Assembly: GCA_016763795.1 (NCBI GenBank)
Contig: JAESTF010000345.1
Location: 1-42,226, forward strand
Length of the DNA: 42,226 bases
Source: Flavobacteriales bacterium
Lineage (GTDB): Bacteria > Bacteroidota > Bacteroidia > Flavobacteriales_E > Vicingaceae
Direction: 5' to 3'
The notes under the pieces were generated by a model. It was not told where the DNA came from, ran no database searches, and saw nothing but the letters and a program-made list of their open reading frames with translations. Below, one piece after another: positions 17,306 to 38,975 of the stretch (positions are counted from its first letter, which is position 1; the number at the start of each line of letters is the position of its first letter). The position numbers were made by a program, and so were the translations under genes.

Positions 17306-17585
17306 AATATATTGGTTTTTTGAAATAAGTTAAAAGTCAAAAGTTCATCAAGTAAAAAGTCTTGACTCTAATGTCTTTAATCTTAAATCTATTAATAAAA
17401 AAACAGCTTATTATGGATAATTTCTCTTACCAACTTCACATTATCCCAGATAGGATATCCCAACTTACTGTATTGAATTACGAAATTAAGCATTCATAAA
17501 AAAAGATGCAAATATTGCAGCTTAGATTTTGGGGCTTCCCTGCGGTCGGGCTGTGCGCTAAATCTTTTTTTCATTTTATTAAATT

Positions 17586-17632
17586 CTCCAAGAGTTATAA
17601 TTCATTAGCTAATTAACTCTTGGAGAGTTTTT
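17586..17632 (+). terminator. Terminator-like hairpin in the divergent acnB/aspS intergenic region
   Basis: CTCCAAGAGTTA (17586-17597) / TAACTCTTGGAG (17614-17625) followed by agTTTTTT; no annotated gene upstream on the plus strand. Confidence 0.6.
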
Positions 17633-17735
17633 TCAAAAAAAAGGATATCGCTTCCATCCCTAAGCCAAACAAAACTCGTCAAAGCATTACTTCTCATATA
17701 AAACCAAAATAAACAGCTTTTAATCAACCCTCCCC

Positions 17736-22010: not shown

Positions 22011-22898
22011 ATGAGTAGAATGAAAAAAATATTATACATATTTATCCCCGTTTTTATTTGCAGTATAAGCGTTGCACAAAGTGTTCCTAACTTTATAATT
22101 ATTGAAGGTGATACTGTAAACTTGGTTGATGAAAATAATTTAAAACAAGGTTTTTGGAAGATTTTTGGTAAAATGAGAAAATTACCTAGATATGAGCCAG
22201 ACCAAGTAATTGAACAAGGAAAATACGCAAACAGCAGGAAACAAGGGCTTTGGACTAAATTTTTCCCTTCAGGAAAAACAAAAAGTGAAATAGAATATAA
22301 AAACAGCAGACCTAATGGGTCTTACAGAACATACTTTGAAAATGGACAAGTAGAAGAAGAAGGTAACTGGAAAAATAATCGTAATACAAATGATTTCAAA
22401 AGGTATTATGAAAATGGACAAGTATCACAAAATTTTGCGTTTAATACCTCCGGAAAAAGAAATGGTAGACAAACCTACTTCTATGAAAATGGACAAGTTA
22501 TGATTGAGGCAGATATAGAGTCTGGCAAAGAAAAATTTGTAAAGGAGTATTACGAAGACGGATCTATTAAAGCTGAGAAAAATTTTATTGATGGAAAGCT
22601 TGATGTTGTAAATACAAAGGTATACGAATCTAAAACTCCTGTTAAAGAAAAAGGTCCTGAAGGAGTTGTAGAAATTGTAACAGTCGACAAGACTGAAAAA
22701 TCCAACACAGGAAGTTTCCATGGAGAAGGACAGCATAAAATGTACAATGCTAACAGACAAATATCTAAAGATGGATTTTTTAAAGCCTATCGTTTAATAG
22801 ATGGGAAATGGTACATTTATGATGGAAATGGAATTTTAACTAAAATTAAACGATTCAAGAGCGGAAGATACATTGGTGATTCTCCTCTCCCAAAATAA
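22011..22898 (+). CDS. MORN-repeat/YwqK-family secreted protein
   Basis: Signal peptide followed by repeated YYENGQV.. units (YFENGQVEEEGNWKNNR, YYENGQVSQNFAF, FYENGQVMIEADI). Confidence 0.85.
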   Translation: MSRMKKILYIFIPVFICSISVAQSVPNFIIIEGDTVNLVDENNLKQGFWKIFGKMRKLPRYEPDQVIEQGKYANSRKQGLWTKFFPSGKTKSEIEYKNSRPNGSYRTYFENGQVEEEGNWKNNRNTNDFKRYYENGQVSQNFAFNTSGKRNGRQTYFYENGQVMIEADIESGKEKFVKEYYEDGSIKAEKNFIDGKLDVVNTKVYESKTPVKEKGPEGVVEIVTVDKTEKSNTGSFHGEGQHKMYNANRQISKDGFFKAYRLIDGKWYIYDGNGILTKIKRFKSGRYIGDSPLPK

Positions 22899-29593: not shown

Positions 29594-32500
29594 TTATCGA
29601 AACAAATACATTTTACCAAAACCTTTCTTAAAATAATTATCAGAAGAATTGCCACGATGTTCTATATTTTCTGAGTTAATTTTAGTAATTACATGATATA
29701 AGTACAACCCATTAGCAAGCCTATCTCCATAAGTATCCGTCCCATCCCAAGCAAATTCCGAAATATTTCTACCAATATTTATTGCTCCTAATTCATCTTT
29801 ATGAATTTCTCTAACCACCTTACCTGTTATTGTCATAATTTGAATTTTAAATACATCTGGTATTTCACTCCCTGTTAACGTAAATACGAACCTTGTAGAG
29901 GTTGTAAAAGGATTTGGATAGTTTAATATATTTGTGATTGTAGATTTATTTATCACCTCAAAGCCTATAATATAATCAAAACTACCCGATCGATTTTCCG
30001 TTCTGTCATTTGCCTGAACTCTCAACCTATACCCTCCATCTTCTAAAAAGCTTCCTTGATAAATAATTTTCGAATTATTTCTTGGTAATGCCGCAGGAAT
30101 AAATTGCATTTTTTCTAACCCTCCAGAATAAAAATAAATTCTCTCTTCTACTCCGCTTGGATAAGTTATATAAACAGCATAAGCCGATGTATCGTTTAAT
30201 AATAAAAACTGATTTTCATCTGTCAGTTCCATCACAATATTAGTTTTTGGAGAAACAATATCCCCATCCAGAATATGAACTCCATCAAAAGTTACATCTA
30301 AAATAGGATTAATCTTATCTGCATTAACATAAAAAGGGATTTGTGCTACATTATTAAAATGATACTTTTCTAATTGATCATTATTAGGATTAACATCTAT
30401 TAATAAGCTATTAAGACCAGCTAGTCCAACAGTAGAAAACGTTAAAGTTGCTATAAAAATACTATCAGCAAGTAAAGGCTTTTGCCTCACATAAGGCAAA
30501 GATTGAATATTTGTATTCCTGTCTAAAACCTCAAATGAAATTAATAAACTATCCATATCATATCTACTAATATTTTTTACTGCTATAGAAACCGTAATAT
30601 CCACTCCTTCATCAACCGTATCATTTTGTATAGAAAAATAAATACTTGGGTCTAATGCTGCTTCAGGAACACCTGCATAAGTTATTTGCCAACGATCTAA
30701 TTGAGGAGCGGTTAATAACGAATCATCAGACAAACGTGCATTTAGTTTTAGATATGGATAAAGTGAGGCATCTATTTGATTAGTAATTCTAATATCCCCT
30801 GAATCGGTTGGCAAACTGTTTATTAAAAGCGTTTGATTTCCACTCGCATCAACACCAAAAACATTTAATACGGTGCTATCTCTAGTAGAAGGAAACTCTA
30901 AGGTATTTACTCTCCAAGATAATGAATCCCACCTTGTTGCAGGTCCTAATGTTTCAGAAAAAATATTACCAAAATTAGCACTTGTTGTTACCACTTTAGA
31001 TAACAATAAATTTTTATGCGTAATTGAATCACCTATAACTTCAATAGTTGAGGCAGGGTTTCCTTTTTGATGATACATTATAAAGGGATACAAATTAGGT
31101 ATTGTTGGCAATTGAGAAGCTCCCATATTGCTAAACTCAGTTCTTAAACTTGCAGGAATCGAATCAGAAAAGCCACTAAGATTTACAATATACCAAGTCC
31201 AAATTAATATATGGTTACCACTTGGAACAGTATCTTTAATAAATGTTTCCAAAGCTGCCATTTGAGTGGCATTATGCCTAAATACAAAAAATAAATCTTT
31301 GTTATTCGGACTAGGATTCGCTTGACCAACACTCCAGTCATCTATTGACCAAGGCTCTAATGTTGCTGAGTCTAATACTGCAACATGAATTGCTGTAGGC
31401 GTTCCTACTCCATTTCCTTCAATATAAGCTCCAGCTTTAAAATATGCTATTTGACCTATTTCAGCCCAACCTGCTTGACCATGAGTCACCACTTTTAATT
31501 CTTTAAGATCATTCACAAATGAATAATTTCTTGTAGGTCTATTGTATTTCACAAACTGGTAATCATCTTTTTCAAACTGAAAAAAATGGTCTTGTTCCCA
31601 ACCCTCTTTTCCTTGGATATATTGAAATGACCTCATCCTCCAACTGTACCCATTTGCATCTACAGAGTCTTTACTTACTCTCCAAAAATAAACAGTACTA
31701 TCTGGCATTGAAACCAATAATGATGGTGACCACGAAACAACTCCTCCTGCATGATTAATTGTAATCCTTTCTTTAACTGGGCTATTAAAATAATCTGTGG
31801 TGTCAATTTCAAATACATAATCTTTTATTGGCTCAAATGGAAATGCAGTAGAAGCTTTTAGTGTAACCCCTTGATCTGGCACTATCATATATTCATAAGG
31901 GTATATTGGTATGATTTCTCCTGAAAATATATTTAATGATTGATTTACCACATTGTTCGTTTCAAACCCCTCTACAACAGCATCAATAGCATCTACAGTA
32001 ATTTTAAAACTATTCAAGCCTAAGCCTCTGACAACATCAACTGGAAGTCGAAATGAAACTGTTTCTTGATAATTAGTCCCAGAAAAAAAATTTGTATAAA
32101 TTGTATCTGCAAAAGAAGTTCCTGGATAATTTCTAACTAGCTCTAAAATAATGGTATCATTTATCGCTTTTCCCAAGTTTGAAACCAACACATTTACATC
32201 AAATGAATCTATATCTGATGTAACAATTGTAGGGTTATAAGTAACGGTACTTGCTTCTATCATATAATCTGGCAATTCAAAAAAGTTTAATTTTACAGCA
32301 GGGTCTCCATGATATGCAAACGCAGAAGCTGTTTGATAACTAACAGGTCCTTGTTCTATTGAGTTTTTAATTTGGCGACCAACACTAATGCCATATTTGA
32401 TATACGCTAAATTTTTATAAAATTCAGAAGCTACTGAATTTAACGAAGTAACTGTAGATAAACCAACCGTAGATAAATAACCGATAACTCCTTTTTGATC

Positions 32501-34647
32501 ATGAATAACATACTCTTCGCTGGTACTATTTGCTGGGGCAGTATGTATATCTCCTGCAAAACATCCTAATCCTAACAAAAAAGGATATTTACCATTTTGG
32601 TTTGGCCACAAATTAACATCATCAATATTTTGATCGAACCCTCCAGATGTTGATGCATGTCCTAAAAATGTCATTAATGCAACCCCATTCCCAATATGGT
32701 CTTTTATTGTATCAGCTAATGTTGTTTGAATTGGCGCTGTAGAATTTTTAAAAAACGAAATTGTATTCCCTCCAAACAACGTATCTTCTATTATATTTTT
32801 ATAGTTATTTAAAAAATTTACAAACGACTGTTGTTCTCCAGCACTCGCTCCTCCTCCAAAATGTAAAACCTTTTTCATCCAATCATTAGAAGCAGTGGAG
32901 CTAATAGGTGCTGGGTTCTCATGTTCAATAATTTTATTTAAATACCATGTTACTTCAGTTCCATTTTTTGCTGCTAGTCGACCAGTTGGAATAAGGGGTT
33001 CTTTGGATGTTCCATTTAATCCTGATGTTAGCATATGATCTGAAGCTGGATCGCCAAAAGAAGGCACAAGGTTATTATGAAATTCATTTACATCTTTTCT
33101 TGATTCACTTGGCTTAACTGATTTTCCTATTAAAAAAAGATAATTAGGCGTTGTTATCCACGTATCTGATATATAATCTATGAAATTTCTAATCGAAAAT
33201 GGATGTTTTTCCACTCCGTAAGAAAATTGATCATACAAGTCTTCTATGTTATAAATTACTACATTCTGAGGTTCTGTATTTAAATTAATTGGATTTAATC
33301 GGTAATTCGCATAATCATTGACTTCCGTCATTAAGCTTGGATGTGTTATAATGACATATGCCGTGTCTATTGGGTTTACCCCATAATCAACAAAAGTTCC
33401 TGTTCCGTTAATAGCAGATAATGATGTAATATTAATTACTTCTCCATCAGAGCTAATAAAACATTGAACAGATGATGATGAAGAGTTTGGAACCAAACAT
33501 TGATGGTTTACACCTGAAGAGACTACATCAATTCTCTTATTATTGGTTAATTCATAAAAATAACATTACTCGATGAATTAAAATTATTAAAATTGAGATA
33601 TGATTTCGCTTCCGTGGGGTGCGATTCTAAAAATAAATTGTCAAAAGTCACTTTCCCTTCTAAATCCATTGTGTGAGGGTAATTAATTTTAATGTACGAA
33701 ACTGTTTGCCTAGCAGCCCCCGCCCCCAAATCATTAATGCTTTCAAAATTTATTGAAGTATTGGCTACTCCAATATCTCCTATAGGGATATTCATTTGAA
33801 TATTAATTTTTTGATACCCTGCAAACACAGAGTCTAACTGGATTGACCCTAAACTAACTCTTAAATGCTGATCTAAAATTAAATTTGCAAAATTTGATTC
33901 ACCTAAAACAACTGTTTCTACAACTGCATTTGGTCCACCTATGTAAGCATTTTGTGTTGGTATATTCTTTGTCTTATTTGCTCCTAATAAGTAATAATTA
34001 TCAAACCAGCCCTCTGTAGGAACATAACCCATAGAAAGTGCTCCACCAGCAAAAGATTCTCCGTCATAATATCTAAAAACACCTCCTGCCTGAGCTCCTA
34101 CCGTGTAATATTGAACAGATTCTTTATTAAAATAATTTATAGGCGTATAAAAAGAAAAATTAGTGTCCGTTTCTATTGTTAAACGATTATTTGATATAGA
34201 TGAATTCCACGTTAAATAGTAGCTAATTGTATCTGTGAATAAACTATAATAAGGGTTAGGCTGATTTGCAACACTTCCATAAAGTAACTCATCCAACCAC
34301 CCATCATTATACTCTCCATAAAACTCAATAAAATCAGTACCATTAAAAGCTCCATCATTCCCTCCTTTAATATACAAAGGCACTTCTACACCTCGAGCAA
34401 ATAATTGGAAATTTTGTGGGTCAATAGTTGAGAGTGGGATTCCTGAATTTACCAAAGCAATAGAATCAATTCTATAAATTCCAGTTTCAGCGACTTTAAA
34501 TTTATAGTATTTCTGAGAGTAATTTATCCAACTATTATTATATGGCTGAGAATAAGCAAATACTGCTACTCCTAATAACAAAATTAGAAATACTGACTTT
34601 TTAAATTTTAGATTTATTTTTTTGAAATTTATCAAACTAAAATACAA
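29594..34647 (-). pseudogene. C25 (gingipain-like) peptidase, PorU/PorU2-type T9SS sortase, split by a frameshift
   Basis: ORFs 33547..34647 and 29594..33496 join as ...NSSSNVIF-YELTNNKRIDVVSSGVNHQCLVPNSSSSSVQ... if one T is added to T5 (33556..33560 on the plus strand as A5). Catalytic-like MTFLGHAS and LGCFAGDIHTAP; C-terminal FlgD-like NYPNPFTTSTRFVFTL...FAWDGTDTYGDRLANGLYLYHV. No ATG; the apparent start is TTG 34647. Confidence 0.8.
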
Positions 34648-34736: not shown

Positions 34737-35840
34737 TTACTCAAACCTCTTTTGAGTATAATTTTGTTTATTAATATCGAAACGCAGCGAAAATATGTTT
34801 GAATAAAGTGCATCTGATTGATCTCCAATATCAGAAAACGCATAATCTAACGTTATTCCTCTAAACTTTATTCCTATACCAAAATTAGGCTGATATGTGA
34901 TTTTATCATTTTTTAAAATATCTGTTACTTTTTGAAAATTTCCAACACCTAACCGTAAAAATATCATTTTGCTATAACCAAACTCAACGCCCATATGGGG
35001 ATCAATACTAACAGGATCTCCAGTAATCAAAACATTTCTTTTCCCATCAGTTGACAAATCAAAATCAATTTCTCCTAAAAAATCAAACTTATTGCTAATC
35101 TTAATTTCTCTGCCAATTCCTAAAATTACTTTTGGCAAAGTAATTTCTATTCCATTTTCTGGCAATTCATTATTCGTTCTTATAAACACCTCAATGGTTT
35201 CTTGATCCAAAGAAGAAGTCCATGCATTAAATGTTGAAGTAACATCTCTTGCCATTAAACCAAATTTCCATTTCTTATAATCATATTGGATTCCTCCATC
35301 TAAACCAAATCCCCAAGCTTTTGCAAACTCGCCCACTTGTCGATAAATAATTTTAACACTTGCTCCATATCTTAACCCTTTAATTTTAGATTTTCGAGCA
35401 TAAGAAAACATAAAGGCATAATCTACTGCAGAAAACGAAGAAATTCTATCAAAATCAATATTTCCATCAGCATCAATTAATTTTGTTGTATTTGGAATAT
35501 CATCTACACCAAAACGGACGATAGAAAATGCAAATGCACTTGCACTATCAATTCTAGCAGCAAAAGCTCCATAATCATACTTTGCAATACCAGCAAAATA
35601 TTCGGCATGCATTAAACTTACCTGAAAATCTTTTTCTATTTGAACCAACCCTGCAGGATTCCAGTACCCCGCAGTAACATCATTTACAGTTGTAACATAA
35701 GAGTTTGACATCCCTAAAGCTCTAGCACCAACACCAATAGATAAAAATTCATTACTAAATTTAGGCGCAGAGGTTTGAGAGAAAATATTTATAACACTCA
35801 AAAGAAAAATAAAAAAAAGTATCCTTTTCATTAATATCAT
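34737..35840 (-). CDS. PorV/PorQ family outer-membrane protein (T9SS-associated)
   Basis: 367 aa; signal peptide; NEFLSIGVGARALGMSNSYVTTVNDVTAGYWNPAGLVQIEKDFQVSLMHAEYFAGI; adjacent to the C25 sortase. Confidence 0.88.
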   Translation of the reverse strand: MILMKRILFFIFLLSVINIFSQTSAPKFSNEFLSIGVGARALGMSNSYVTTVNDVTAGYWNPAGLVQIEKDFQVSLMHAEYFAGIAKYDYGAFAARIDSASAFAFSIVRFGVDDIPNTTKLIDADGNIDFDRISSFSAVDYAFMFSYARKSKIKGLRYGASVKIIYRQVGEFAKAWGFGLDGGIQYDYKKWKFGLMARDVTSTFNAWTSSLDQETIEVFIRTNNELPENGIEITLPKVILGIGREIKISNKFDFLGEIDFDLSTDGKRNVLITGDPVSIDPHMGVEFGYSKMIFLRLGVGNFQKVTDILKNDKITYQPNFGIGIKFRGITLDYAFSDIGDQSDALYSNIFSLRFDINKQNYTQKRFE

Positions 35841-37189: not shown

Positions 37190-37936
37190 CTAAATTCCTA
37201 ACATAGTTTTTAATTCTTGGTAACGAGAACGGCTCACTTTTAAATCTGTTCCATTTTTTAGTACAACTTGATAGGTATCCTTTCCGTATTTCTCAATTTT
37301 ATTAATTTCTGAAATTTTCACGATGTAAGAACGATGAATTCTAATAAATTTTGAAGCGTCTAAATTTTCCTCATAAAACTTCATGGTTTGATGTTTCAAA
37401 TGCTTTCCCTTTGTGGTATGTATCATCACATAATCGTCTTCCGATTCAATAAACAACACTTCATCTAAAGGAATTACATGAATATTATTATTCGATTTTA
37501 CAACAATTTTATCCAGTACTTTACCCTCTAAAATATGTGATTTAAGTTGGTTTACATTATCTGAAGATTTACCACTTCCTATTTTTTGAAACACCTTATC
37601 TAACGCTTTGTCAAAACGTTCTTTAGAAAATGGTTTTAACAAATAATCTACTGCATTTAAATCAAAAGCATTAATCGCATACTCATCATAAGCAGTGGTA
37701 AAAATAATATGAGGATTCCCTTCAACCAATTCTAACAATTCCAAACCTGTGAGCTTTGGCATTTGCACATCTAAAAAAACAATGTCTGGCTTTAATTCGT
37801 TAATTGCTTTTAGCCCAGAAAATCAGTCAGCAAATTCACCAATCAATTCTATACTTTTTTGAGTAGATAAATAATTTCTAACTAAATCTCTAGCCAAAGA
37901 TTCATCTTCTACAATTATTGCTGTTTGTTTAGTCAT
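37190..37936 (-). pseudogene. LytTR family response regulator with in-frame TGA in the receiver domain
   Basis: ATG 37936: MTKQTAIIVEDESLARDLVRNYLSTQKSIELIGEFAD*FSGLKAINELKPDIVFLDVQMPKLTGLELLE...; TGA is codon 38 (plus-strand tca 37823..37825). The same frame continues through the receiver and LytTR domains. Confidence 0.88.
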
Positions 37937-38975
37937 TTTGTGGAATTTTAATGGAAACTGTAAATAGATTTTCTAACTTATCAATCATTAATAAATCATT
38001 CTTTTTATAAATTAGGAATAACCGTTCTCTAGTGTTTTTTAATCCAATACCTTCTCCTTTTGTTTGTTTTGCATCCTTATCAAAATCGTTCTGTAATGAT
38101 ATTTTCAATGTTTGGTCATTTACCTCACAATCTAATTTAATATGAATGGTTTCTACACTTTCATATACGCCATGCTTAATCGCATTTTCAAAAAGAGGTT
38201 GTAAAATCATTGCAGGGATGCTTGATTTTAGTGATTTATCATCACAGTTAAACTGGAAACTTAATCGATCTCCAAAGCGAATTTTTTCTATCTCTAAATA
38301 AAGCTTTATGTTATCTAACTCTGTTTTTAATGTTGTAATTTGTTGTTCTTCATTACTTAATGAATACCTCAAATATTCAGAAAGTTTAATAATCATTTCT
38401 TGTGCTTTTTGAGGGCTTGTAATCGTTAACGAACTCACAGAATTTAAACTATTAAACAAAAAATGAGGATTAATTTGATTCTTTAAAGCCTTTAGTTCTA
38501 CCTCTTTAATTAATGTTTTCAAATTGGCTTCTTGTTTAATCTTACTTTGAATATCTTGATAATACACCACCACATAATACACCAAAATAAATAACGAATA
38601 ATAAAATATTCCACTAATAATTCGCCAAGGGAAAGAGCTATCTAAAAAGGATAAATAATGAACATCAGATATTGCATATCTTAAAATTAAATACCCACTA
38701 ATTAACCAAAAACCTATTATCAATAAAGAAGAAACTATATGACTAATAAAAAGGTTAACAAAGTTCTGATTGCTTTTCCCATACCGAACCAAGTTCCATA
38801 AGCTAATACCTAAAAATGCAAAAAACACATTAAATAATAAACTATCTGCAGACGAAATACCTACCGACAAACCATAATACCAGTGTAAAACCGCAAAGTG
38901 AGCCCCTATAATTAAGGACCACACTAATGCGTAATTTATCGTATACTTGCTATTGCTTGTTATTGGGTTTAACAT
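37929..38975 (-). CDS. LytS/YehU-type sensor histidine kinase
   Basis: 348 aa; multi-TM N-terminus; LKALKNQINPHFLFNSLNSVSSL; PAMILQPLFENAIKHGV; GEGIGLKNTRERL. Confidence 0.93.
   Translation of the reverse strand: MLNPITSNSKYTINYALVWSLIIGAHFAVLHWYYGLSVGISSADSLLFNVFFAFLGISLWNLVRYGKSNQNFVNLFISHIVSSLLIIGFWLISGYLILRYAISDVHYLSFLDSSFPWRIISGIFYYSLFILVYYVVVYYQDIQSKIKQEANLKTLIKEVELKALKNQINPHFLFNSLNSVSSLTITSPQKAQEMIIKLSEYLRYSLSNEEQQITTLKTELDNIKLYLEIEKIRFGDRLSFQFNCDDKSLKSSIPAMILQPLFENAIKHGVYESVETIHIKLDCEVNDQTLKISLQNDFDKDAKQTKGEGIGLKNTRERLFLIYKKNDLLMIDKLENLFTVSIKIPQND

Follow-up and report, generated by a model that had tools for sequence, protein, structure and literature searches.

The window analysed here, the whole 42,226-nt stretch of Flavobacteriales bacterium contig JAESTF010000345.1, carries on its minus strand a putative PorU2 gene of about 5 kb, running from about 34635 to 29594 and split over two frames (Table 1). 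The two minus-strand ORFs given in the preliminary description, 33547..34647 and 29594..33496, were both recovered. The upstream ORF terminates in ...SSSNVIFMN* and the downstream frame reads ...FYELTNNKR...; in nucleotides, the former is ...AGT AAT GTT ATT TTT ATG AAT TAA and the latter ...TTT TAT GAA TTA ACC AAT.... Relative to the upstream frame, the downstream one is shifted by -1, and the two meet at a run of five T's (33556-33560), as had been proposed from the letters. The downstream piece is open throughout, and no second lesion was found in the gene. Elsewhere in the window, a Flavo-1 RNA (RF01705) lies at 17540-17670 on the minus strand (46.6 bits, gathering score 42), and a 295-aa repeat-like protein is encoded at 22011-22898; the orthologue of the latter in genome G009 (L053 7505-8306) changes frame mid-gene, and the piece in its G002 counterpart reads X, i.e., N's.

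Table 1. Positions in the window of the PorU2 gene pieces, the frame-change point and neighboring features
Feature	Positions	Strand	Basis
PorU2 downstream piece: C25 peptidase and C-terminal sorting-like domain	29594..33559	-	PF01364, NF052324 338-879
Motifs FLGHAS and GLGCFAG, only in downstream frame	32552..32668	-	sequence
TAA stop met by upstream frame past the lesion	33547..33549	-	sequence
PorU2 upstream piece: signal peptide and N-terminal domain	33550..34635	-	NF052324 3-337; start common to genus orthologues
T5 run, frame-change point	33556..33560	-	relatives in frame with T1 to T8
PorV2, intact, directly upstream of PorU2	34737..35840	-	NF052325 512.9 bits, cut-off 325
LytTR response regulator, in-frame TGA at 37823-37825	37190..37938	-	three genus relatives intact with Gly

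That the two ORFs are adjacent pieces of one protein, the central claim of the preliminary description, is borne out by the NCBIfam model for PorU2 (NF052324): the upstream piece matches model positions 3-337 (1.7e-75, 254.8 bits) and the downstream piece positions 338-879 (3.7e-127, 425.8 bits). Both scores fall below the 450-bit cut-off when taken singly, but the matches are contiguous on one profile, so the pairing is not due to chance. An intact genus orthologue (G006) scores 694 bits against the same cut-off, which agrees with the PorU2-like label. The locus thus resembles the modelled family in its contiguous match over both pieces and in the adjoining PorV2 gene (NF052325), and differs from it in being read in two frames, neither of which reaches the cut-off alone. 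The downstream piece contains a C25 peptidase domain (PF01364, 8.1e-51, 173.8 bits, cut-off 23), and its FLGHAS and GLGCFAG motifs presumably hold the catalytic His and Cys of that domain. The C-terminal part, described earlier as FlgD-like, corresponds in the intact orthologue to a T9SS type A sorting domain, with a match slightly below the cut-off. The product is predicted to be a putative T9SS sortase paralogue paired with PorV2. This prediction draws only on the name of the model and on the C25 domain, no paper in the literature collection searched naming PorU2. When the downstream piece was compared with solved structures, no match was returned.

The 5' end of the gene needs one adjustment. 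The range 33547..34647 holds as an open reading frame, but the conserved start is probably the TTG at 34635 rather than position 34647. Most PorU2 orthologues in the genus lack an ATG before the signal peptide, and the shared start seems to be TTG or GTG (L004, L007-L015, L045). A missing start codon was considered as a further lesion and rejected, a TTG or GTG being found at the same place in the genus orthologues.

Are the two pieces simply two genes? PorU2 was surveyed in 60 related genomes and matched in 59. Every full-length orthologue is one single frame (roughly 1650-1880 aa) and none is split at this point; other short PorU2 frames in these genomes mostly stop at contig ends. Within the genus, the orthologues not cut short by a contig end occupy one frame of about 1680-1715 aa. 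The exception is G013, which has separate lesions of its own: its frame changes twice in about 50 nt, some 25 codons upstream of the site (L045 2480-2620), in what is probably a low-quality stretch. Two other relatives have PorU2 breaks of another kind, G034 with a large in-frame deletion and G036 with about 700 bp (L044 4600-5313) that do not match the orthologue and lack a long open frame in the direction of the gene. The junction itself was recovered from more than 30 related loci and is in frame in all of them, across T-runs of 1 to 8; run length follows codon choice, and the frame is never broken at this site. The genus member G008 reads GTT-ATT-TTT-TAT, with the same codons and six T's. 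Since the relatives read through, and G008 does so with six T's, the window is one T short in comparison with them and does not carry two natural genes. Both pieces are long and open, as adjacent genes would be, but one profile covers the two of them, and the downstream frame does not reach an ATG until 33331, inside the conserved region; for the latter reason the downstream piece is probably not an independent exported protein. The possibility that homologs are naturally two genes, raised earlier as a check, was thus answered in the negative by the single-frame orthologues, and a natural two-gene arrangement can be given practically no weight.

Another possibility is that the break is bridged in the cell, by a programmed -1 ribosomal frameshift or by transcriptional slippage on the U-run, so that a short protein is made alongside the full-length one. 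The frames do overlap at the run, and a slip of one base would join them. The upstream frame, however, reads GUU AUU UUU AUG, without the X XXY YYZ heptamer whose absence the preliminary description had already recorded, and no RNA stimulator was found in a 91-nt segment taking in the site and the sequence that follows it (z +0.67; 156 of 200 shuffled sequences fold as well). A run of five U's is also short for slippage by RNA polymerase. No relative shows the frame transition: all recovered junctions cross the point in frame. Recoding, which had been left as an option, is accordingly very improbable.

Phase variation, the other option raised, supposes that the T-run changes length at replication and so switches PorU2 on and off. 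In its fuller form, T5 and T6 alleles coexisting in populations would act as an off/on switch of the PorU2/PorV2 branch while canonical PorU stays on. An expected site of action at the cell surface, a change of exactly one unit within a homopolymer, and a run length that does vary among relatives are all in keeping with such a switch. The minimum length applied to phase-variation tracts in one study is nonetheless 7 nt (PMC3711429), and the run at the lesion, at five, falls short of it; longer T7, T8 and A7 runs within the same gene are free of lesions. The variation in run length follows codon choice and is never out of frame at the site, and the G013 lesions sit at other sites of the gene. 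Replication slippage as a switching mechanism is therefore very unlikely, and the same small probability applies to the proposed alternation of alleles.

Very probably, then, the locus is one PorU2 gene from which a single T in a short T-run has been lost without any programming, the cause being presumably either an error or a fresh mutation. The relatives, the missing heptamer and the lack of RNA structure support the preference already expressed for error or mutation as the simpler explanation. How old might such a loss be? Third codon positions were saturated, and rates were informative only for amino acids and for first and second positions. On the branch of this genome (G000) the amino-acid rates were 0.272 for the upstream half and 0.189 for the downstream half, both within the genus ranges (0.103-0.592 and 0.130-0.349, respectively). 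Because both halves evolve at normal rates and the gene has no second lesion, the break is either very recent or an artefact.

The assembly gives some context for choosing between these. The source genome is a draft of 3.24 Mb in 377 contigs, 74.6% complete. The comparison of lesions with relatives took in 30.1 kb from the window plus about 38.8 kb from other contigs of this genome (about 69 kb together); contig C12 fell outside the comparison, its query gene having no match in five relatives. Only two sense-strand lesions were found, the PorU2 break and the unrelated in-frame TGA in the LytTR response regulator gene; the histidine kinase gene adjoining the latter is intact. The two lesions share one contig and are 4.3 kb apart, a clustering that is suggestive but, with only two events, not significant. 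The ORFs of the window contain 127 runs of at least six identical bases, with no comparable break wherever relatives allowed comparison. Homopolymer error of a systematic kind is therefore not apparent, which favors either a sporadic error or a mutation that is real. Neither a second strain copy of the locus in the same assembly, where only one copy was found, nor the same junction in viral contigs was detected.

Published work on spurious frameshifts bears on the same choice. In simulations, spurious frameshifts rose in number when coverage was low, and poor reads led mostly to additional internal stops; many one-off frameshifts have been attributed to errors of assembly, above all where coverage is low (PMC11017572); BLAST-validated singleton frameshifts are likewise expected to be sequencing errors (PMC3711429). 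The PorU2 break is like these cases in being a one-off lesion in a draft assembly with intact relatives. On these grounds, an assembly error of the fragmented draft genome is placed somewhat ahead, at slightly better than even chances, of a very recent inactivating mutation in the sampled population, which is a serious contender at somewhat less than even.

The main lesson is one of caution: where a draft metagenome contig shows a one-base break, it should be compared with relatives before recoding or switching is called. Taken as sequenced, the gene would be read by the ribosome through the signal peptide and N-terminal domain, translation would end at the 33547 stop, and no C25 catalytic domain of PorU2 would be produced. 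Canonical PorU is intact elsewhere in the genome (contig C53; NF033707, 1356 bits). If the mutation is real, the organism would have lost the catalytic domain of PorU2 while keeping its main sortase, canonical PorU, and a real loss would point to PorU2 being dispensable for the lineage.
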